Source of the DNA: Planctomycetaceae bacterium
Lineage (GTDB): Bacteria; Planctomycetota; Phycisphaerae; Phycisphaerales; SM1A02
Direction of reading: 5' to 3'
Assembly (NCBI GenBank): GCA_947490615.1
Contig: CANLHK010000017.1
Coordinates: 1-45,626 of the forward strand
DNA length: 45,626 nucleotides
Part shown: in pieces, positions 1,432 through 30,721 of the stretch
Layout: each line of letters starts with the position of its first letter
Position numbering within the stretch: position 1 is the stretch's first letter
Program-made: the position numbers and the translations under genes
Notes under the pieces: generated by a model
Seen by the model: the letters and a program-made list of their open reading frames with translations, nothing else
Told to the model about the DNA's origin: nothing
The model's database searches: none

Positions 1432-3489
1432 TTACGGTGCGGTTCCCCAGCGCGAGAGCAGCACCGCAAGATCTTGCGAACCAATCACTCCATCATGGTT
1501 GAGATCACCATACGGCGGCTCTGGATCGTTCCACACTGAGAGCAGTGCAGCGAGATCCTGCGAGCCGACGATGCCGTTGAGATCAAAGTCTCCCCACTGG
1601 AGTTGCTCGCAGTCGGCCAGACCATCGGAGTTCTCGTCGGTCTGAAATGGACCGCACAGACACTCGGAAGGTCGCGTGGGTTGTTCGCTGCATTGGGCGG
1701 GGATCGCTAGGTTTTGCCAGACGCCCGCCACGATGGCGCCCACGCCGCCGTACGCCGCGGGTTGCGCAATGACCCCCTGGCCAAAGCGGTTGCCGCCCCA
1801 GGCGCGCAGTGAGCCATCCTCCAGCAACACGATGGTGTGTTCATGACCTGCTGCGATGGCGCGCGCTGGTGGAAGATCCGCTGGCACTGCGCACTGTCCC
1901 AGGCCATTCCAACCCCAACAGATCACCGATGCTTTCGCGTCGAGCGCGACGGAGTGCAGGTTTCCCGTGGCGACGCGTCGCGCGTTGGTGAGTGAGATGG
2001 GTGGCGTCGATTGGCCAAACGAGTCGGAGCCCCAACAGGCGACCGCAGCGTTGGCGTCGACGGCAATGGAGTGCCTTGCTCCCGCCGCGAAATCGATCAC
2101 CGTCGCGAGGTTGATGGGGACGGCACATTGTCCGTCGTCGTTGGAACCCCACGCGACCAGCGCGCCGGCCATCGTCGAAGCAAGCGTATGAAAACTTCCG
2201 CACTCGACGCGTTCAAACGGCCCGTACATCAAGTGGGTGTCGCACTGTCCGTGGCTGTTGTCTCCCCAGCAACGCAGGGCGCCGACGGAGTCGATCGCCA
2301 CGCTGTGCAGAGAGCCCGCGCCAACAGCGCGCGCCACGAGATCAAGCGGAACATCCGACTGTTGGTAGGTGTTGGAGCCGATCGCGCGAACCATGCCGTT
2401 GGCGTCAAGGAGGAGATGATGTGCTTCGCCGACGGCAGCATCGACGATCTCCGCACTTCCGATGCTTGGCGCGCATTGGCCACGATCGTTGCGTCCCCAG
2501 GCGCGGAAAGTACCGTCGGCGAGTTGCGCCATGGAGTGTTCGAGCCCAGCGCTCAGCGCCACGACATCGGTGATGAACGCCTGCGCTTCACACTGCCCGA
2601 GTGTGTTGGCGCCCCACGAGTAGACCGAACCGTCAGCGATCCGCGCCAGCGCGTGAAATCCACCCGACGCGATCTCGACCACATCATCGAGGCTCGCGGG
2701 GACTCCGCTCTGCATCACAGTCTGCCCGCCCAAACATCGAACGGTGCCGTCCGCGCGCAAGGCAAGCGTGTGTCCGTACCCGCAGGCGACGGCGGTGGCG
2801 ACACCAACATCCTCAGGCACCGTGGTCTGTCCGTCGAAGTTCAACCCCCAACAGAGCACCGCGCCGTCGGCACGCACCGCAGCGCTGTGGTTCGTGCCAG
2901 CTGCGATCGCGCTGGTCAAGCCGAGTTGCGCAGGAACCAGCGTTTGCCCGTAGAGGGTGCTCCCCCAGCAGCGCACCGTGCCGTCGCTGCGCAGGAGCAC
3001 ATTGTGATCGCCGCCCGCGTCCAGCGTCGCGGCGACGCCCACGCTCGGCGGAGCGTCACACTGTCCGTGGTTGTTCGCGCCCCAACCCACGATCTGACCG
3101 CTCGCTAGGACCGCGAGCGTGTGACGACCACCCGCAGCGACCTTGATCGCAGCACCAATCGCCAGCGGCACCACGCATTGCCCATTGCTGTTGTCACCCC
3201 AACACGCCACGCGTCCATCGGGCAAGCGCGCTGCAACATGGTTGTCGCCACAGGAGACCTCCGCGACATCATGCAGCGTCTCGATGTGCGAGAAGCCGAC
3301 GAGACCCCAGGCTGTGACGGACTGCGCCGTGGTCGCGCTGGTGCACGCCAGCACTCCGAGCGCACTGGCAAACTGCGCGGCGTGCTGCGCCACCGCAGCG
3401 AGGCGTCGTGCGCTAAGGAACTGTCCCGCGCGACGCTTTACAACTTGGGCGTGCGAAACCGATCCGCTGTCGAGCGAATTGCATTGCAT
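1432..3489 (-). CDS. Secreted RCC1-repeat (beta-propeller) protein with dockerin-like C-terminus
   Basis: 685 aa. A positively charged N-terminus and a hydrophobic Ala/Leu stretch ending near 'TSATTAQS' (about residue 57) suggest export. I count 13 repeats of about 50 residues carrying W-G-x-N-x-x-G-Q-C or a variant, alternating with 'AAGxxHxxAxxxDGxVxCWG', the signature of RCC1/BLIP-II seven-bladed propellers; 13 repeats could make two propellers. Repeats 5 and 8 are degenerate (LGGQTVMQS, IGSNTYQQS). The last 50 residues contain two copies of D-x-N-x-x-G-x-x-G-S-Q-D-L-A-x-L-L-S-x-W, a calcium-type dockerin-like module shared with the M14 peptidase at 41634-43949. The role is probably in surface or extracellular protein interaction; no enzyme motif is visible. 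The ATG at 3489 is used, but a start further in, before the hydrophobic stretch, would also fit. Confidence 0.88.
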   Translation of the reverse strand: MQCNSLDSGSVSHAQVVKRRAGQFLSARRLAAVAQHAAQFASALGVLACTSATTAQSVTAWGLVGFSHIETLHDVAEVSCGDNHVAARLPDGRVACWGDNSNGQCVVPLAIGAAIKVAAGGRHTLAVLASGQIVGWGANNHGQCDAPPSVGVAATLDAGGDHNVLLRSDGTVRCWGSTLYGQTLVPAQLGLTSAIAAGTNHSAAVRADGAVLCWGLNFDGQTTVPEDVGVATAVACGYGHTLALRADGTVRCLGGQTVMQSGVPASLDDVVEIASGGFHALARIADGSVYSWGANTLGQCEAQAFITDVVALSAGLEHSMAQLADGTFRAWGRNDRGQCAPSIGSAEIVDAAVGEAHHLLLDANGMVRAIGSNTYQQSDVPLDLVARAVGAGSLHSVAIDSVGALRCWGDNSHGQCDTHLMYGPFERVECGSFHTLASTMAGALVAWGSNDDGQCAVPINLATVIDFAAGARHSIAVDANAAVACWGSDSFGQSTPPISLTNARRVATGNLHSVALDAKASVICWGWNGLGQCAVPADLPPARAIAAGHEHTIVLLEDGSLRAWGGNRFGQGVIAQPAAYGGVGAIVAGVWQNLAIPAQCSEQPTRPSECLCGPFQTDENSDGLADCEQLQWGDFDLNGIVGSQDLAALLSVWNDPEPPYGDLNHDGVIGSQDLAVLLSRWGTAP

Positions 3490-21534: not shown

Positions 21535-21918
21535 ATGCACTTCACGGCGTCAACTCTCCTCGCGTGCTTCATTCTGCTGGGAGTCGGTGGTTGCAACACG
21601 ACACGATCGGCTGTCATGCCAGGAGCTCTGCAACATGTCGTTCTCGTCGATCTTGAAGATGACGCAGAGATCGCTGCGATGCGCGCCGACAGCGATCGCC
21701 TGCTGCCGACCATCCCGATGGTCAAGGGCTATGTGTGCGGAACTCCCGTCGAGTGCGGACGGACGAATGTCTCGAAGGATTACGACCTCGGCATCGTTGT
21801 GCAGTTCGACTCGGTGGAGGCCTACCAGGCGTACCTCGTGCATCCGATACACCAGGAGCTGGTGACCAAGTGGCGCCCGCATTGGAAGCGCTCCTTCATC
21901 GTTGACTTCGCGCCGTGA
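21535..21918 (+). CDS. Dabb-like (stress-response A/B barrel) lipoprotein
   Basis: 127 aa. A lipoprotein signal peptide ends at 'LLGVGGC' (Cys-20), then a Dabb-type ferredoxin-like domain follows: 'LQHVVLVDLEDDAEIAAMRADSD', 'IPMVKGYVCGTPV', 'DYDLGIVVQFDSVEAYQAYLVHPIHQELV', ending 'RSFIVDF'. The Dabb pattern (H-V-V at the start, Y-x-x-H-P-x-H near the end) is clear. The function of lipid-anchored members is unknown. It is divergent from the membrane protein gene and 6 bp from the convergent aminotransferase stop. Confidence 0.8.
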   Translation: MHFTASTLLACFILLGVGGCNTTRSAVMPGALQHVVLVDLEDDAEIAAMRADSDRLLPTIPMVKGYVCGTPVECGRTNVSKDYDLGIVVQFDSVEAYQAYLVHPIHQELVTKWRPHWKRSFIVDFAP

Positions 21919-24346: not shown

Positions 24347-25261
24347 TCAGCGGTCGCGCGAAATTTCTGGATGTGGGGTTGAGCGCTCTCCAGCCCGAAC
24401 CGCAGCGGGGAGCTGATTTTCGACGGGAGGGAGCGGGCAAGTCGCAAACGGTGTGAAGCTGCAGGGCGGATTGATCGCGCGGTTGAAGTCGAGCGTCGTC
24501 AGGCCGTTGCGCGGGGCGGGGACCTCTAAGAATCGCCCTCCGCCATAGGTCAGGGCTCCGTTGGTCTTGTCGCCAAAGACCACAAACAGCGTGCCTGCGG
24601 AGCCTTTGGTGGCGGTGAGCGTGTGGGGCACGCCAGCGACAGTGAAGGTGAGCTGGGCAGCGACGGGTTGCTCTTCGACAAAGCCTCGGACATTGGTGAT
24701 GGCGACCATTTGCCCTGGCGTCGGAGCGACCACCGCGGCCTCGACAGCCCAAACGGGGTTGTAGTCAAAGAGCGGGATGCCTTGGAAGTGCGCGCGGGTG
24801 GCGCTGGCGCTGTCGCGAACCCGAAGCGCGCGCTGACCATTGCGACGCACGAGCGTGAAGGAGAGTGTGCCGTTGCGGATCACGGAGGGAGCGCCAGACT
24901 CGTCGGTGTGGAGCACCCCGTCCGCCGTCGCGTGCTCAAGCGTGCAGAGGACCGACGGCGCTGCATGAAACCGCACGGTGTCGGCGGTGACTTCCAACGC
25001 ACCGATAGTCGCGGCGGTGCAGTGCTCGTAACAGAGCGTCGAGCTCGGGGCGGCCCCGATGGTGCTGGTGCCGAGTTCGAGAAAGTCGAGACCGACGAGC
25101 GTGAGCCAGCCGTCCGGCGCGCGCAACGCATCAAGTCGCGCGGCGTGCCAAGCAGCGCGATCGGCTGCGGGCGAAGGAGAGGGAGTCGTTGAGTGTGAAG
25201 CGGTCATCGAGGTACACGCAGCCAGAAGCGAGAGCCCAAGCAGACACGCGAGACGAGTCAT
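24347..25261 (-). CDS. DUF1684 lipoprotein
   Basis: 304 aa. The signal peptide 'MTRLACLLGLSLLAAC' gives lipid-modified Cys-16. The DUF1684 body has 'RAPDGWLTLVGLDFLELGTSTIG' near residue 50 and the diagnostic C-terminal block 'NRAINPPCSFTPFATCPLPP' followed by 'ENQLPAAVRAGE'. In most members the Asn-Pro-Cys block contains 'FNRAxNPxCA', so the domain is intact. Function unknown; surface-anchored members are common in Bacteroidetes and planctomycetes. The start lies only 51 bp from the terminator of the upstream structured region, so its promoter must be very short or embedded. Confidence 0.88.
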   Translation of the reverse strand: MTRLACLLGLSLLAACTSMTASHSTTPSPSPAADRAAWHAARLDALRAPDGWLTLVGLDFLELGTSTIGAAPSSTLCYEHCTAATIGALEVTADTVRFHAAPSVLCTLEHATADGVLHTDESGAPSVIRNGTLSFTLVRRNGQRALRVRDSASATRAHFQGIPLFDYNPVWAVEAAVVAPTPGQMVAITNVRGFVEEQPVAAQLTFTVAGVPHTLTATKGSAGTLFVVFGDKTNGALTYGGGRFLEVPAPRNGLTTLDFNRAINPPCSFTPFATCPLPPVENQLPAAVRAGERSTPHPEISRDR

Positions 25262-25299: not shown

Positions 25300-25343
25300 C
25301 GCCAAAAACAAAGCCCCCCGCAGAGGTGGGGTCTGCGGGGGGC
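25300..25343 (-). terminator. Strong intrinsic terminator downstream of nrdJ region
   Basis: The 12-bp stem is GCCCCCCGCAGA (25313-25324) with TCTGCGGGGGGC (25332-25343) and a 7-nt loop. On the minus strand it is followed by TTTGTTTTTGGC, an excellent U-tract. It ends a minus-strand transcript coming from nrdJ or from the structured region between. Confidence 0.92.
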
Positions 25344-25600
25344 GGGAGCGGGACCTTCGCGTGGTTGGTCCCGCCGTGGTGGTATGGAGCGAGCGCTGGT
25401 GTGATGTCTGGTCGCGGCTCCTGCTTCGCGTGTGAGGACACGCGGGCGGGGACAGGCTTTGCGAACTCCTTGCTCGCCTGTCTGCGCGGATGGATCCGTC
25501 CATCCGATGAGCCTTCCAAACTGTCGGGTGTACGACTTCCCGAATCAACCATCGATCGCGAACTGTGCCAGGTGTGTCGGAGTCCTCAGCAGACACCCGG
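25313..25600 (-). ncRNA. Candidate structured non-coding RNA (chain of hairpins ending in a terminator)
   Basis: No protein domain, ribosome binding site or known RNA family is recognised. Hairpins found by eye, nearly back to back: 25313-25343 (12 bp, terminator), 25348-25374 (GCGGGACC/GGTCCCGC, 8 bp), 25386-25421 (GGAGC/GCTCC plus inner GCG/CGC), 25427-25444 (CGCGTGT-GAGG-ACACGCG), 25451-25482 (GACAGGC/GCCTGTC, 18-nt loop), 25487-25506 (CGGATGGA-TCCG-TCCATCCG) and an enclosing stem 25525-25531 with 25593-25599 (CGGGTGT/ACACCCG). The chain of stems plus the correctly oriented U-tract argues for an RNA made from the minus strand. The 5' end is unknown; it may be the 3' UTR of nrdJ or an independent RNA starting anywhere up to 25928. 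Confidence 0.45.
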
Positions 25601-25928
25601 TCAAATGGCCTTGCGTGAATTTCGGCTTCCGTTCCTATCTCCGATCTCCTGACTGCATCCGATGGAGCAGGCATTGCGAGATCAGCCACCTCGTGTGGAG
25701 CAAGGTCAGTCACTGCAGCGGGATTGCCTCCGCGCTGCCATCAGTCTCCATCCGCACACGCTTGTTCGACTGCGCGCGGTGCGTCGCGCTCAGCCGGGGC
25801 CGAAGCCCGTTCATTGGTCTTGCCTCCTCGCGGAGGCGGGTGGTCTTGAGTCACCTGTCCTGAAAGTCTGTCGTCCTAGCAACCTCGGCGCGCTTGCCTC
25901 TGCCGCGCAGGAGTTGGCGGGGCCGTCC
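25601..25928. other. Gene-free stretch directly downstream of nrdJ
   Basis: 328 bp between the nrdJ stop and the hairpin cluster. A GCCTCC-TCGC-GGAGGC hairpin lies at 25822-25837. No coding frame with family resemblance is found on either strand. It could be the 5' part of the candidate RNA or the nrdJ 3' UTR. Confidence 0.4.
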
Positions 25929-28900
25929 TCAGCTGCAACCCATCGAGTTGCCGCAGTTGAGGCAGCGGTAGCAGGTGCCGTTGCGCACTGTGATCGATCC
26001 GCATCCATCGCACGCAGGGGCGTCGCCCATCAACGCTGCGTTGGCCGCATCGAGCGCATTGCCTGCGGTCGTCTTGACGATCCGCTCGACCGAGGCCGAG
26101 GCCAAGGTCACGCTCTCGTACTCGAAGCTCCGCACTTCGCGGGGCTGCGAGGCCGAGCCAGAAGATTGGAACGCGCTCGTGGCCATGCTCACACTCGACT
26201 CGGTCACCTCGGCGACACCGTGCGTTGGAAAGAGCCGCGTGGTCGGAAGGGCGGGAGTCTGCAATGTCGCGGTCTCTGTCTTGGCTGCGTCGAGCGCGAT
26301 TTCGCGGCGCACCGCCCATGCGGGTATGGCCGATGGAGTCGGTGCTGGTGAAGTGCTGCCAGTCGAGACGCCTGACGCTGTCGCTGATCCGTGCGTGCAT
26401 GCGGTGTCCTCCTTGCGTGGTGAGTCGCTGCAAGTGAAATCACTGGTCGGGGAACTCGAGGTTGGGCGTCCTGTCAGGGTGGATGGCGACGCCTCTTGAG
26501 CGCCGACAGCGGTCCTGCGAGGAGCGTTCTGCTCGCGATAGCCTGGGACGAACTGCATGCCGAGCCATCGGAAGATGTAATCGACGAGGCTCTTGGCGAA
26601 GGGGATGTCCGAGTTCGTCGTCATGCCCATCGGTTCGAAGCGCTGGTGTGCAAACTTGGTGACGAGGCTCTCGATGGGAACTCCGTACTGAAGCGCAACC
26701 GAGACCGCAGTCCCGAGCGAGTCCATCAGTCCGCCGATCGTCGAGCCTTCCTTGGCCATGGTGATGAACAACTCACCAGGGCGACCGTCCTCGTAGAGAC
26801 CGACGATGAGATAGCCCTCATGGCCTGCGACATTGAACTTGTGGGTAATCGAATCGCGCGTTTCACGGAGGCGCCGACGCATCGGCTTCTCGATGATGCG
26901 CTCGACGATGCGGTCCACCACGCGGTCCACCACGCGCTCCACGACGCGTTCGACGACGACTTCCACGATGACCTCGCGGATCCCAGCCTCAACGGGAGTT
27001 GCCGTGGCGGGAGCCGCAGGAATCGCGGCGACCGCTTCGGCCGTCAGCGCTTCGGTGAGGAGTTCGCGTTGCTCAGCGGCATCGGTGACGGCCTCAGCGG
27101 CAGGGTCGGCGTTGACCGCAGACTTCTTCGCCGTTGCAGCGGGAGCTTCTTCAGCCCTGTCGCTCTTGGTCGAGAGCGGCTGGCTGAGCTTGCATCCGTC
27201 GCGATAGAGCGCGTTGGCTTTGAGTCCGAGTTCCCAACTGAGCCTGTAGCACTCACCGATGGCCTTGACATCGGCGTCGCTTGGCAGGTTGATCGTCTTG
27301 GAGATGGCGCCAGTCACGAACGGCTGCGCTGCAGCCATCATGCGGATGTGGCCTTCCGCCTTGATGAAGCGCTCGCTCAGCGGTCCGCAGCGGTTCGCGC
27401 AATCAAAGACGGCGAGGTGCTCATCCTTGAGATGCGGAGCGCCTTCGATCGTCTGCGTCCCGCAGATGATGCGGTTGAGTCCGTCGATTTGCTTCGCCGT
27501 CAATCCAAGCGCGCGGAGTCCGTTGAACGACGGATCACTCTTGGCCTTGGCGGGATCGATACCGCACGCGGCAAGCACTTCGGTCGGCATCGACCACGCG
27601 CTGAACGCGAAGGCGATCTCGAAGACGGTTGGAAGCGAGTTCTCGACGGCGATGAGCTTCTCGTGTGAGAAACCCTTGGAGAGCAGGAACTCGCGCAACG
27701 AGGACGCAGTCGCGGCATCGCTGCCGCCATCTTCCGCAGCAGGAATCTGCGCATCGAGGCTGAGCGTGCCCATCACATACGCGACCATCTCGTCAGCTTG
27801 CTCAGGTGAGTAACCGAGCGCGCGAATCGCTGGGCGAAGCGACTGGTTGGCGATCTTGAAGTAGCCGCCGCCCGCGAGCTTCTTGAACTTCACAAGCGCA
27901 AAGTCCGGCTCGACACCCGTCGTGTCGCAATCCATCAGGAGACCGATGGTGCCGGTCGGCGCAATGACCGTGGTCTGCGCATTGCGGAAGCCAAACTTCT
28001 CGCCGTAATTCAGGGCGTCGTCCCAGCAGGCCGTGGCGCGATCGAGCATGCGATCGGCGTTGGCGAAGGTGACGCGACCTGCAGTAACGACGGTGTGATC
28101 GATCGGCACCGGACGGGTGCGCAGTGCTTCGTAGTCGTCGCTGGTTCGTGAGACTCCCATCGCAGCGCGGCGATGGTTGCGGATCACGCGCAGCATGTTC
28201 TCGCGATTTTCGGGGTAGCCCGCAAAGGGTCCGTGCTCGGCAGCGAGCAACGCGCTCTGCGCATACGACCGACCTGTGAGGATCGAAGTCAGCATGCCGC
28301 AAGTGGCGCGGCCTTCTTCGCTGTCATAAGGAATGCCTGCTTGCATGAGCATGGCGCCGAGGTTGGCGTAGCCCAAGCCCAGCGTGCGGTAGCGCCACGA
28401 GAGATCAGCAATCTCCTTCGACGGGAACGCGGCCATGAGCACGGAAACTTCCAGCACGATCGTCCAGAGGTTGATCGCGTGCTCGTAACCCTCAAGGTCG
28501 AAACGCCGCGATGGCGCGTCGTAGAACTTGAGGAGATTGATCGAGGCGAGGTTGCACGCCGTGTTGTCGAGGAACATGTACTCCGAGCAGGGATTGCTCG
28601 CGTTGATGCGTCCTCCAGCGGGGCAGGTGTGCCAGTCGTTGATCGTGGTGTCGTACTGCACGCCTGGATCGGCGCAACGCCACGCTGCGAAGTTGATCTC
28701 TTCCCAGAGGTCCTTGGCCTTCACGCTCTTGGCGACCTTGCCGTCGGTGCGACGGATGAGATCCCAATTGGCGTCGGCATCGAGCGCGTCGAAGAACGCG
28801 TCAGGGATGCGTACCGAGTTGTTGGAGTTCTGCCCGCTGACGGTGTAGTAGGACTCGCCGTTGAAGTCGTAGTCGAGCTTGAGCTTGAACTTCTCCGCGA

Positions 28901-29855
28901 GCTTCTTCTGGTCGTCGCTGAGCACCTTCATGCCTTCGACGAGTGCGGCGACCTTGATCTCCTCGCGCACCTTCCAGTTCACGAAGCTCTCGATGTCGGG
29001 ATGGTCGAGGTCGAGGCAGACCATCTTGGCTGCGCGACGCGTCGTGCCGCCCGACTTGATCGCGGCCGCCGCGCGGTCGCCGATCTTGAGGAAGCTCATG
29101 AGACCAGAGCTCTTGCCGCCACCCGAGAGTGGCTCGTTCTCGCCGCGGCACTGGGAGAAATTCGTCCCTGTGCCCGAGCCGTACTTGAAGAGGCGCGCCT
29201 CGCGCGTCCAGAGGTCCATGATGCCGCCCTCACCCACGAGGTCGTCCTTCACCGCTTGGATGAAGCACGCGTGGGGTTGCGGATGGGTGTAGGCGTCGGT
29301 CGCGAGTTTCGCGTTGCCCGAGCGATGGTCGGCGATCCAGTGTCCTTGCGCAGGACCAGAGATTCCGTAGGCGTAGTGCAGACCGGTGTTGAACCACTGC
29401 GGGCTGTTGGGAGCGGCCATCTGCGTGAGCAGCATGTAGGCGAGCTCGTCATAGAACGCTTCGGCATCACGCTTCGTGGAGAAGTAACCGAACTTCTCAC
29501 CCCAGTGCGTCCAGCACCCAGCAAGACGGTGAACGACTTGTCGCACCGACTTCTCAGGTCCAGTGACGGGCTTGCCCGCGATCGGCTTGCCTGAGGCGTC
29601 CTTCTTGCCCGCGGCGCTGGTCTCCTCCAAGATCGGAGTGCCGTCGGCGGCAAACTGCGGAACGCCAGCTTTGCGGAAGTACTTGCTCACGACGATGTCC
29701 GTCGCAAGCTGACTCCACGAGGCGGGCACTTCCGCGTCGGTCATCTCGAAGACGGTCGACCCGTCGGAATTCGAGATGCGGCTTGATCGTTTGGACCACT
29801 CCAAGGTGTCATAGACATTCTGGCCGGACTTGGTGAAGCGTCGCGAGATCTTCAT
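25929..29855 (-). CDS. nrdJ: Class II (adenosylcobalamin-dependent) ribonucleoside-diphosphate reductase
   Basis: 1308 aa from the ATG at 29855 (MKISRRFTKSG). It makes deoxyribonucleotides using a B12-generated thiyl radical. Landmarks in order are 'MAAPNSPQWFNTGLHYAYG' (about 140-160), 'HACFIQAVKDDLVG' (about 195), 'GTGTNFSQCRGENEPLSGGG', 'NPCSEYMFLDNTACNLASINL' (Asn-Cys-Glu radical site, about 420) and 'VIAPTGTIGLLMDCDTTGVEP'. A linker at about residues 960-990 holds repeats of (V/I)(V/I)(E/D)R, then a TSCPD domain at about 1000-1100 ('HKFNVAGHEGYLIVGLYEDG'), and a Ser/Thr-rich stretch. The end is a zinc-ribbon-like tail C-D-G-C-G ... C-Y-R-C-L-N-C-G, a likely redox-active C-terminal relay. 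It lies 203 bp downstream of dcd on the same strand with tandem repeats between. Confidence 0.96.
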   Translation of the reverse strand: MKISRRFTKSGQNVYDTLEWSKRSSRISNSDGSTVFEMTDAEVPASWSQLATDIVVSKYFRKAGVPQFAADGTPILEETSAAGKKDASGKPIAGKPVTGPEKSVRQVVHRLAGCWTHWGEKFGYFSTKRDAEAFYDELAYMLLTQMAAPNSPQWFNTGLHYAYGISGPAQGHWIADHRSGNAKLATDAYTHPQPHACFIQAVKDDLVGEGGIMDLWTREARLFKYGSGTGTNFSQCRGENEPLSGGGKSSGLMSFLKIGDRAAAAIKSGGTTRRAAKMVCLDLDHPDIESFVNWKVREEIKVAALVEGMKVLSDDQKKLAEKFKLKLDYDFNGESYYTVSGQNSNNSVRIPDAFFDALDADANWDLIRRTDGKVAKSVKAKDLWEEINFAAWRCADPGVQYDTTINDWHTCPAGGRINASNPCSEYMFLDNTACNLASINLLKFYDAPSRRFDLEGYEHAINLWTIVLEVSVLMAAFPSKEIADLSWRYRTLGLGYANLGAMLMQAGIPYDSEEGRATCGMLTSILTGRSYAQSALLAAEHGPFAGYPENRENMLRVIRNHRRAAMGVSRTSDDYEALRTRPVPIDHTVVTAGRVTFANADRMLDRATACWDDALNYGEKFGFRNAQTTVIAPTGTIGLLMDCDTTGVEPDFALVKFKKLAGGGYFKIANQSLRPAIRALGYSPEQADEMVAYVMGTLSLDAQIPAAEDGGSDAATASSLREFLLSKGFSHEKLIAVENSLPTVFEIAFAFSAWSMPTEVLAACGIDPAKAKSDPSFNGLRALGLTAKQIDGLNRIICGTQTIEGAPHLKDEHLAVFDCANRCGPLSERFIKAEGHIRMMAAAQPFVTGAISKTINLPSDADVKAIGECYRLSWELGLKANALYRDGCKLSQPLSTKSDRAEEAPAATAKKSAVNADPAAEAVTDAAEQRELLTEALTAEAVAAIPAAPATATPVEAGIREVIVEVVVERVVERVVDRVVDRIVERIIEKPMRRRLRETRDSITHKFNVAGHEGYLIVGLYEDGRPGELFITMAKEGSTIGGLMDSLGTAVSVALQYGVPIESLVTKFAHQRFEPMGMTTNSDIPFAKSLVDYIFRWLGMQFVPGYREQNAPRRTAVGAQEASPSTLTGRPTSSSPTSDFTCSDSPRKEDTACTHGSATASGVSTGSTSPAPTPSAIPAWAVRREIALDAAKTETATLQTPALPTTRLFPTHGVAEVTESSVSMATSAFQSSGSASQPREVRSFEYESVTLASASVERIVKTTAGNALDAANAALMGDAPACDGCGSITVRNGTCYRCLNCGNSMGCS
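26886..26975 (-). repeat. nrdJ: 12-bp-period coding repeat in nrdJ linker
   Basis: The minus-strand codons for (V/I)(V/I)(E/D)R are repeated about seven times in a row, giving a 12-bp DNA period (variants of GTGGTGGACCGC). A four-residue hydrophobic/charged period is neither a heptad nor a random low-complexity tract. The number of repeats could vary between strains by slippage. Confidence 0.7.
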
Positions 29856-29964
29856 GTTCTTAGGGCTTCCTGCGCGATCGATCGAGCGGGGAGGGGTGCT
29901 GGCGGTGGACGACTGCGGTGGACGAATCAGTTTCGAAATGGGGGGGAGCTGGTGGGCGCGGCGG

Positions 29965-30034
29965 TCGACCTGATGCAGACCTGATGCAGACCTGATGCAA
30001 ACCTGATGCAAACCTGATGCAAACTTGAGGTCGA
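29965..30034. repeat. Five tandem 11-bp repeats between dcd and nrdJ
   Basis: Five perfect-length copies of (G/A)ACCTGATGCA start at 29967, 29978, 29989, 30000 and 30011, with a degenerate sixth (AACTTGAGG) after 30022. Copies 1-3 start with G and copies 4-5 with A, otherwise identical. The array is bracketed by the inverted pair TCGACCT (29965-29971) and AGGTCGA (30028-30034). It sits 110 bp upstream of the nrdJ ATG. The 11-bp period puts every copy on about the same face of the helix, as in arrays of transcription-factor sites. Confidence 0.9.
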
Positions 30035-30058: not shown

Positions 30059-30721
30059 TCAGCTGGCGCCTGCGGGAACGCGCGGGGTACAACAGTGCTG
30101 CGCAGCGTTCTGCGTCACGACAGAAGCCGACGGCCGCGAGGGCTCGAGGGGACCATCAACAAGAGGAAGCGTGAGCCCCTTCTGGTCTTGGTACTTGCCC
30201 TTCTTGTCGGCGTAGCTGGTGGCGCACACGCGATCGGCCTTGAGGAAGATCATCTGCGCGATGCCTTCGTTGGCGTAGATCCGCGCTGGAAGCGGCGTGG
30301 TGTTGGAGATCTCGATCGTGACCTTGCCGCGCCACTCGGGCTCGAGCGGCGTGACATTCACGATGATGCCGCAGCGCGCGTAGGTCGACTTGCCGACGCA
30401 GATCGCTAGGACATCGCGCGGGACGCGGATCTCCTCCACCGTCTCGGCGAGCGCAAAGGAATTCGGCGGGATGATGATGTGGTCGCGACCAGTCAACTCG
30501 GTGTCGATGGTCAAGAACAGGTCGTTGGTGAAGTTCTTCGGGTCGACCACCGCCGTGCCGCCGCTCGTGGCGTTGGTGAAGACCTTGAACTTGGTCCCCA
30601 CGCGAACGTCATAGCCGTAACTGGACACGCCGTAGCTGACGACGCCTGGTCGCTTCTCGTTGGACGCGAAGGGCTCGATATGAACGAGCTCGCGGATTTG
30701 GGTATCACTCAATACTGGCAT
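30059..30721 (-). CDS. dcd: dCTP deaminase
   Basis: 220 aa from the ATG at 30721 ([12 protein letters not shown]). It deaminates dCTP to dUTP (or, if bifunctional, to dUMP) in the pyrimidine deoxynucleotide pathway. Family blocks are '[15 protein letters not shown]', '[25 protein letters not shown]', '[34 protein letters not shown]' (with the catalytic Glu region 'PLEPEWRG') and '[15 protein letters not shown]'. After the normal end near '[10 protein letters not shown]' (about 185) there is an extra tail of about 35 residues, '[15 protein letters not shown]...[11 protein letters not shown]', that looks unstructured. Whether it deaminates only or also hydrolyses triphosphate cannot be decided. 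Next to nrdJ, as expected for dNTP supply. Confidence 0.93.

Follow-up and report, generated by a model that had tools for sequence, protein, structure and literature searches.

A conserved structured RNA in the 3' UTR of planctomycete nrdJ with candidate CsrA-binding loops

Results

The nrdJ locus

The window, the whole stretch of 45,626 nucleotides analyzed here (contig C17), belongs to a planctomycete genome of 3.26 Mb in 28 contigs that is 96.9% complete. The gene order on its minus strand is dcd, nrdJ, the structured RNA that is the subject of this study, and a gene for a DUF1684 lipoprotein (Table 1). The nrdJ product matches a Pfam barrel domain (E 5e-120), Ribonuc_red_2_N (E 2e-38) and TSCPD, and its start is the ATG at 29855, within a longer open reading frame that extends to 30092. 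By eye, tandem GCATCAGGT(TT/CT) repeats lie 5' of this start codon, at 29960-30030 on the minus strand. A search for the class I small subunit gave no match in this 96.9% complete genome, and nrdJ may for this reason be the main reductase of the organism. Among relatives in the window's family, 16 have DNA upstream of nrdJ; 13 of them carry dcd there, and 1.9-3.3 kb of this DNA showed no dcd in the other three.

An earlier note, made from the sequence alone, had placed a structured RNA between nrdJ and the DUF1684 gene. While nrdJ proved to be a constant neighbor across loci, the DUF1684 gene follows the RNA in only 9 of 30 loci (flank up to 1.5 kb) and is therefore not a constant partner gene; it was found in 6 of 51 further loci, for which the fetched downstream DNA was short. 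The window also contains a small Dabb-domain lipoprotein-like gene (21535-21918, plus strand), and by eye open reading frame starts resembling it come after the RNA in some other genera.

Table 1. Genes and RNA features of the nrdJ locus, in window coordinates
Feature	Position	Strand	Description	Basis
dcd	30059..30721	minus	dCTP deaminase; gene before nrdJ	Pfam DCD, E 1.6e-34
nrdJ	25929..29855	minus	class II B12-dependent ribonucleotide reductase	Pfam domains; start by comparison
Structured RNA	25301..25810	minus	conserved structured RNA in nrdJ 3' UTR	genus DNA matches; alignment; fold
5' domain	25608..25810	minus	extra domain; ANGGA at 25751-25747 and 25632-25628	alignments
P0	25568..25600	minus	hairpin; conserved loop residues CUCCGA	fold
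Core	25406..25521	minus	P1 and P2 around P3, P4 and P5; four-way junction	own minimum-energy fold and family covariation
P1	25521-25516/25411-25406	minus	stem	
P2	25513-25509/25420-25416	minus	stem	
P3	25487..25506	minus	hairpin; loop A-C-GGA-U at 25499-25494, CsrA-type ANGGAN site	
P4	25451..25482	minus	hairpin; loop CAAGGA at 25472-25467, CsrA-type CANGGA site	
P5	25427..25444	minus	variable hairpin	inserts in some other genera (by eye)
H4	25347..25375	minus	hairpin	covariation within genus
Terminator	25313..25343	minus	hairpin; loop CCCCACC at 25331-25325; U-tract 25312-25304	
DUF1684 gene	24347..25261	minus	lipoprotein gene, downstream and outside the RNA element	Pfam, E 4e-40

Hairpins and extent of the window's own copy

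Six hairpins had been claimed for this spacer. Five perfect stems are present, at 25313-25324/25332-25343 (12 bp), 25348-25355/25367-25374 (8 bp), 25427-25433/25438-25444 (7 bp), 25451-25457/25476-25482 (7 bp) and 25487-25494/25499-25506 (8 bp); the sixth, imperfect hairpin was not separately identified. The last hairpin on the minus strand is indeed an intrinsic terminator with a U-tract, in which a GC-rich stem of 12 bp is followed by UUUGUUUUU. The proposed enclosing stem 25525-25531/25593-25599 did not hold up as a conserved helix: its 25525-25531 arm sits in a stretch that is unconserved in the genus alignment by eye, and 25593-25600 pairs instead with 25568-25575 to form the conserved hairpin P0. 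The proposed extent of 288 nt was likewise too short, as the conserved stretch spans ~510 nt and reaches about 25810 in the widest match, and the RNA occupies most of the nrdJ 3' UTR (about 25810-25301).

For 25300-25620, the minus strand has a folding energy of -138.6 kcal/mol compared to -116.1 +/- 5.9 for shuffled sequences (z -3.8; 0 of 100 as good), and the plus strand of the same interval also beats its shuffles (z -3.3; 0 of 100 as good). Computed alone, the minimum-energy fold of the window's copy is P1-P2-[P3,P4,P5], the same arrangement that was obtained from covariation across the family.

Distribution and linkage to nrdJ

A DNA search with the 641-nt spacer matched all 15 other sampled genomes of the genus over up to about 510 nt (widest match, query 116-625), and outside the genus it gave weak, short matches in 2 of 45 genomes. 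Throughout the genus, nrdJ lies directly upstream of the RNA on the same strand; the C-terminal regions of its product are ~54-63% identical, and stretches of ~80 nt at the 3' end of the RNA are 83-88% identical in three genomes.

To reach further, we used a covariance model of the 3' domain trained with the window's genus (R1), which found exactly one match each in 82 of 151 family genomes, representing 27 of 45 genera. Of these loci 81 were analyzed; in the one left out (G180), the nrdJ tail ends 214 nt upstream of the match by coordinates. In 79 of the 81 loci (30/30 and 49/51), nrdJ is upstream on the same strand, and in the other two the upstream sequence stops short of 185 nt. Since synteny was not used in the search, this neighborhood validates even the weak matches. 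A second covariance model built without the window's genus (R2), together with a filters-off search of nrdJ flanks, added nine genera at E below 0.001, and nine of the 45 genera keep nrdJ but show no convincing core with R1, R2 or the flank search. When R2 was run under strict filters on 301 genomes from the order and 392 from the phylum, it found the core only in the same family; at genome scale it missed the window's own copy, which scores 23.5 bits with R2 among the loci and is found by R1, whose training included it. By eye, loci from two other families (L233 from f4 and L234 from f3) contain the P3 sequence GGCGAGUGGAUGGA, where R2 gives only E 0.049 on L233 and, at another spot, E 0.29 on L234.

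A 23-base degenerate core pattern searched over a collection of named genomes retrieved 38 loci, with titles naming 34 planctomycetes, three uncultured bacteria and one Chitinophaga. Three of these loci are truncated and nrdJ is upstream in the remaining 35. Placement directly downstream of one gene on the same strand, as expected of a 3'-UTR regulatory element, is seen in 79/81 family and 35/38 named-genome loci. The core begins 33-60 nt after the nrdJ stop codon in several genomes and a hairpin starts about 8 nt past it in L052, leaving little room for a separate promoter. The earlier note had offered an independent RNA, a processed nrdJ 3' UTR or a ribozyme-like element. Synteny and the short distance from stop codon to core favor the 3' UTR, probably co-transcribed with nrdJ, over an independent gene, and the ribozyme found no support.

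Conserved architecture

Across genera, the core is closed by P1, a long stem with the consensus GCGAUGGG/CCCAUCGC, and within it P2 (GGUC/GACC) encloses the three hairpins P3, P4 and P5. In an alignment of 13 hand-chosen sequences, this structure pairs 92.7% of cells and two-sided changes occur at 11 pairs, compared to 5.2 in shuffles. When 85 distinct rows were aligned to the model, two-sided compensatory changes were seen at 30 of 31 base pairs, with 351 two-sided-change cells versus 94 in the shuffled control, and pairing in slid controls was 44-54%. The alignment is biased toward the model, and three weak opposite-strand rows of A7 are among its rows. The truncated locus L016 was omitted from several alignments. 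An alignment-free test of P1 gave a moderate result, with 10 bp reached in 40 of 52 loci versus 26% for shuffles and 39.5% for swapped flanks. The minus-strand reading is backed by frequent G-U pairs and by much weaker scores on the opposite strand (e.g. 123.9 vs 23.2 bits). The structure is conserved in relatives with compensatory changes, the kind of evidence that the earlier note had named as support.

The extra 5' domain is present in the window's genus and, by eye, in g17, and its AANGGAAG columns are invariant except for N in 15 sequences. In L038, a weak second R1 match (18.9 bits; 1745-1932, minus strand) lies upstream of the main one, a hint that the core may have been duplicated and have diverged to give the 5' domain. 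A sub-motif, GGAAYGGAAGCC, was seen by eye within the P5 inserts of some genera (L051, L070, L084) and in the 5' domain of the window's genus, a distribution that looks as if a module had moved.

Several tertiary or long-range pairings were considered. Among the 76 family loci outside the genus, 67 have CUCCG 5' of the core, but a kissing interaction between the P0 loop (CUCCG) and the P4 loop (CGGAG) is not supported, because the P4 GGA is kept in the 9 of 76 loci where P0 lacks CUCCG. For base pairing between the terminator loop CCCACC and either GGUGG of the core or the nrdJ start, there was no covariation and, by eye, no conserved partner. A CU tract (CCCUCC) precedes CCCACC in 23 of 76 family UTRs outside the genus; it might pair with the GGA sites, although the tract is not general.

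Comparison with known RNAs and repeats

No Rfam family, including riboswitches, RNase P, tmRNA, 6S, L17DE and the nrdJ motif, matched the window at its gathering score, and none did so over the element in 11 relatives, in agreement with the earlier impression that no recognized family was involved; the Csr/Rsm families were likewise without a match at gathering score in the window and these relatives. At E-value thresholds, only sub-threshold matches fell over the RNA, such as sX13 on the window (23.6 bits, E 0.032, gathering score 50) and rsmX on L106 (24.5 bits, gathering score 56). The genome's own RNase P RNA is on another contig (C2), which removes this candidate; tmRNA, SRP RNA and 6S RNA were not located in it. 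In one genome (G024), RNase P RNA adjoins the element in convergent orientation, and the RNase P match there (L101 1-247) is this neighboring gene rather than the element.

The RNA stretch is single-copy in the window's genome, which sets it apart from the dispersed palindromic repeat that the earlier note had named as refuting its view. That the hairpins arose by chance or represent such a repeat, an idea for which only the high G+C content speaks, is refuted by the single copy and the covariation. It is near certain that the nrdJ 3' UTR contains a real and new conserved structured RNA family, newness being judged against Rfam 15 and open-access literature searches.

A-N-GGA loops as candidate CsrA sites

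The P3 loop contains A-N-GGA in 86 of 86 rows (N is U in 58, C in 14 and A in 14); it is exactly six nucleotides (ANGGAN) in 83 rows, and six with a standard closing pair in 78. The P4 loop contains CA-N-GGA in 85 of the 86, with all four bases occurring at N. The three weak opposite-strand rows of A7 were dropped for this count. The rows were found with models containing these loops, and their near-invariance is thus partly ascertainment; since N is free, the pattern is not ascertainment in that one respect. Judged by sequence, both loops match the CsrA/RsmE recognition motif. RsmE contacts the A and GGA of an ANGGAN hexaloop with N variable, and the SELEX consensus is RUACARGGAUGU (PMC7652899). 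A(N)GGA in a hairpin is described as a CsrA site, and Planctomycetes are named as having CsrA (PMC10729762).

The GGA triplets are predicted to be unpaired with a probability of 0.71 in P3 (GGA located in 75 of 76 cores) and 0.74 in P4 (located in 71 of 76), compared to 0.33 for all triplets; the value for ANGGA is 0.65 versus 0.30 for other GGA. The spacer between the two GGA has a median of 27 nt (range 25-48). The P3 stem of the window is unusually long and stable (8 bp), and very stable hairpins may bind less well (PMC7652899).

Relative to shuffled sequences, ANGGA is enriched in the 76 family UTRs outside the genus (334 vs 144 +/- 12), in the 15 genus UTRs (76 vs 44 +/- 5) and in 30 UTRs from other families of the order (99 vs 47 +/- 6), and CANGGA follows (147 vs 47, 27 vs 17 +/- 3 and 42 vs 13, respectively). 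The selection of these 30 among 41 fetched flanks was based mostly on the presence of a terminator; the 11 left out had no terminator found or lacked nrdJ. ANGGA averages 4.4 per UTR in the 76 loci and 5.1 in the 15 genus loci, where total GGA shows only a modest enrichment (254 vs 224 +/- 9). In controls from 14 to 18 loci with long flanks, neither the antisense strand (z -0.9 and 1.5) nor the downstream DNA (z 0.0 and 0.4) was clearly enriched in the motifs. The argument from the UTRs is tempered by the final 430 nt of nrdJ coding sequence, where ANGGA (z 2.3) and CANGGA (z 4.1) are also enriched, though more weakly. Family sequences also share ancestry, and enrichment among them therefore does not represent many independent events.

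A csrA gene (PF02599) was found in all 161 genomes of the order, often twice, with two matches in the window's genome; the same search also gave matches for 3 of the 14 control genomes. L4 and R44 are retained in the one CsrA that was read from the window's genome.

A terminator module linked to nrdJ and dcd

The final 40 nt contain CCCACC in 13 of the 15 UTRs from the genus and in 38 of the 76 from the rest of the family. In terminators after nrdJ across the order (window 25331-25325; L207-L230 and others), the CCCACC loop is often kept and CCCUCC precedes the stem, while the stem sequence varies. When 161 genomes of the order were searched for the pattern CCCUCC-N-CCCACC-N-UUUU, those with a located nrdJ tail yielded 83 distinct sites; nine further sites, in genomes without a detected tail, were counted apart. 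Of the 83 sites, 43 are found 105-917 nt past nrdJ and on its strand; they come from four families, f2 being represented by one genus only, and the hairpin around the CCCACC loop is formed at 41 of these 43. Among the 40 sites elsewhere, only three have a stem of 7 or more.

In three genomes of genus g37 (G057, G202, G214; L241, L242, L243), dcd is directly followed by the CU tract, the CCCACC loop and A-N-GGA motifs, and no nrdJ tail was detected in them. We infer that nrdJ was possibly lost from its place between dcd and the 3' RNA, a natural deletion; dcd precedes nrdJ in 13 of 16 relatives rather than all, which makes this reading less secure. That the 3' module persists next to dcd where no nrdJ tail is detected leans toward action in trans.

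Discussion

We propose, with a probability of roughly 0.6, that the element forms the structured 3' UTR of nrdJ mRNA and serves as a docking RNA for CsrA, a prediction made from sequence. Binding of CsrA by the P3/P4 RNA is likely given the motif, the loop size, the predicted exposure, the enrichment and the presence of csrA. One CsrA dimer would bridge P3 and P4, and the further A-N-GGA sites would add more CsrA binding. Less certainly, the terminated 3' end might persist as a stable RNA that titrates CsrA as a sponge, in which case CsrA activity could track the expression of DNA-precursor genes.

The main alternative within this CsrA model is control in cis, where CsrA at the 3' UTR would alter decay or termination of the nrdJ mRNA and no sponge would be formed. 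It is a possible but less probable outcome, consistent with the position directly after nrdJ in 79 of 81 loci, none of them contradictory, and with the single R1 match per matching genome; the occurrence of the 3' module after dcd in genomes without a detected nrdJ tail argues against it, as does the lack of a conserved partner near the nrdJ start in 16 genomes inspected by eye. The C-rich terminator loop (CCCACC) and CU-rich tract could alternatively belong to a base-pairing sRNA acting on Shine-Dalgarno or GGUGGG sites. Retention of the loop while the stem varies, with the hairpin formed at 41/43 nrdJ-proximal sites, and the sub-threshold sX13 matches speak for this idea, but it would account for the terminator and not for the P1-P5 core or the ANGGA loops, and outside the genus the last 40 nt contain CCCACC in only 38/76 family UTRs, preceded by CCCUCC in 23/76; we consider it unlikely.

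Somewhat more unlikely still is a 3'-UTR aptamer for a metabolite such as adenosylcobalamin or a dNTP that controls mRNA stability, with the GGA loops as tertiary contacts. A four-way junction with conserved loops beside the gene of a B12-dependent enzyme would suit such a role, yet no Rfam riboswitch matched, the conserved loop residues fit a protein-binding motif with a free N, and other families have similar motifs, mostly within different folds. A passive structure at the 3' end, with no role beyond termination and protection from exonucleases, would be in keeping with the strong terminator and the many hairpins, but it leaves the near-invariant unpaired loop bases and the conserved architecture unexplained and is quite improbable.

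The CsrB/CsrC, RsmX/Y/Z and McaS sRNAs, which belong to another phylum and end in an intrinsic terminator, are the closest analogs of the proposed CsrA docking RNA. They share with it several A-N-GGA in hairpin loops, a csrA gene in the genome and the terminator. Unlike them, the nrdJ element matches no Rfam family, is part of an mRNA 3' UTR and forms a defined four-way junction with two near-invariant sites, and its approximately 5 ANGGA per genus UTR are fewer than the GGA motifs in CsrB. The hcnA and glgC mRNA leaders have a GGA in a hairpin loop and a second site that a CsrA dimer can bridge (PMC7652899); these leaders act near the ribosome-binding site, whereas the nrdJ element is in a 3' UTR. 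The sX13 sRNA of Xanthomonadaceae is alike in its GC-rich hairpins ending in a terminator, with a match well short of its gathering score (23.6 vs 50 bits). The nrdJ RNA motif of Rfam lies upstream of nrdJ and shares the link to this gene by name, and the 3'-UTR element was without a match to it in Rfam scans. That motif is reported in Streptomyces and named in PMC8388888. Regulation by a structured RNA domain in a 3' UTR has been called highly unusual in bacteria (PMC2864571). A precedent is the L17 downstream element, a structured RNA that follows a conserved bacterial gene in what may be its 3' UTR and that in many cases has no annotated gene just downstream (PMC2864571); it involves another gene and another structure, with no CsrA motif reported in the available text of that paper, and the nrdJ element does not match it. 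No CsrA-partner RNA of Planctomycetota, and none tying CsrA to nrdJ, appears among the open-access literature matches listed, as far as their available text goes.

The interpretation in the earlier note, an unrecognized, terminator-ended structured RNA on the minus strand after nrdJ, is partly supported. Its account did not include how far the RNA reaches (about 25810), the four-way junction closed by P1, the A-N-GGA loops or the nrdJ-linked terminator loop.

Collectively, our data describe a new structured bacterial RNA family with strong covariation that is located in the 3' UTR of a gene. If CsrA docking is confirmed, the element would be a concrete candidate for a CsrA partner RNA in Planctomycetota, tying this global post-transcriptional regulator to B12-dependent DNA-precursor synthesis. 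More tentatively, it might represent an unreported Csr-type antagonist RNA of this phylum, in which the sponge is the 3' tail of a DNA-precursor transcript and a CsrA dimer is clamped across the four-way junction; making DNA precursors would then free CsrA targets.
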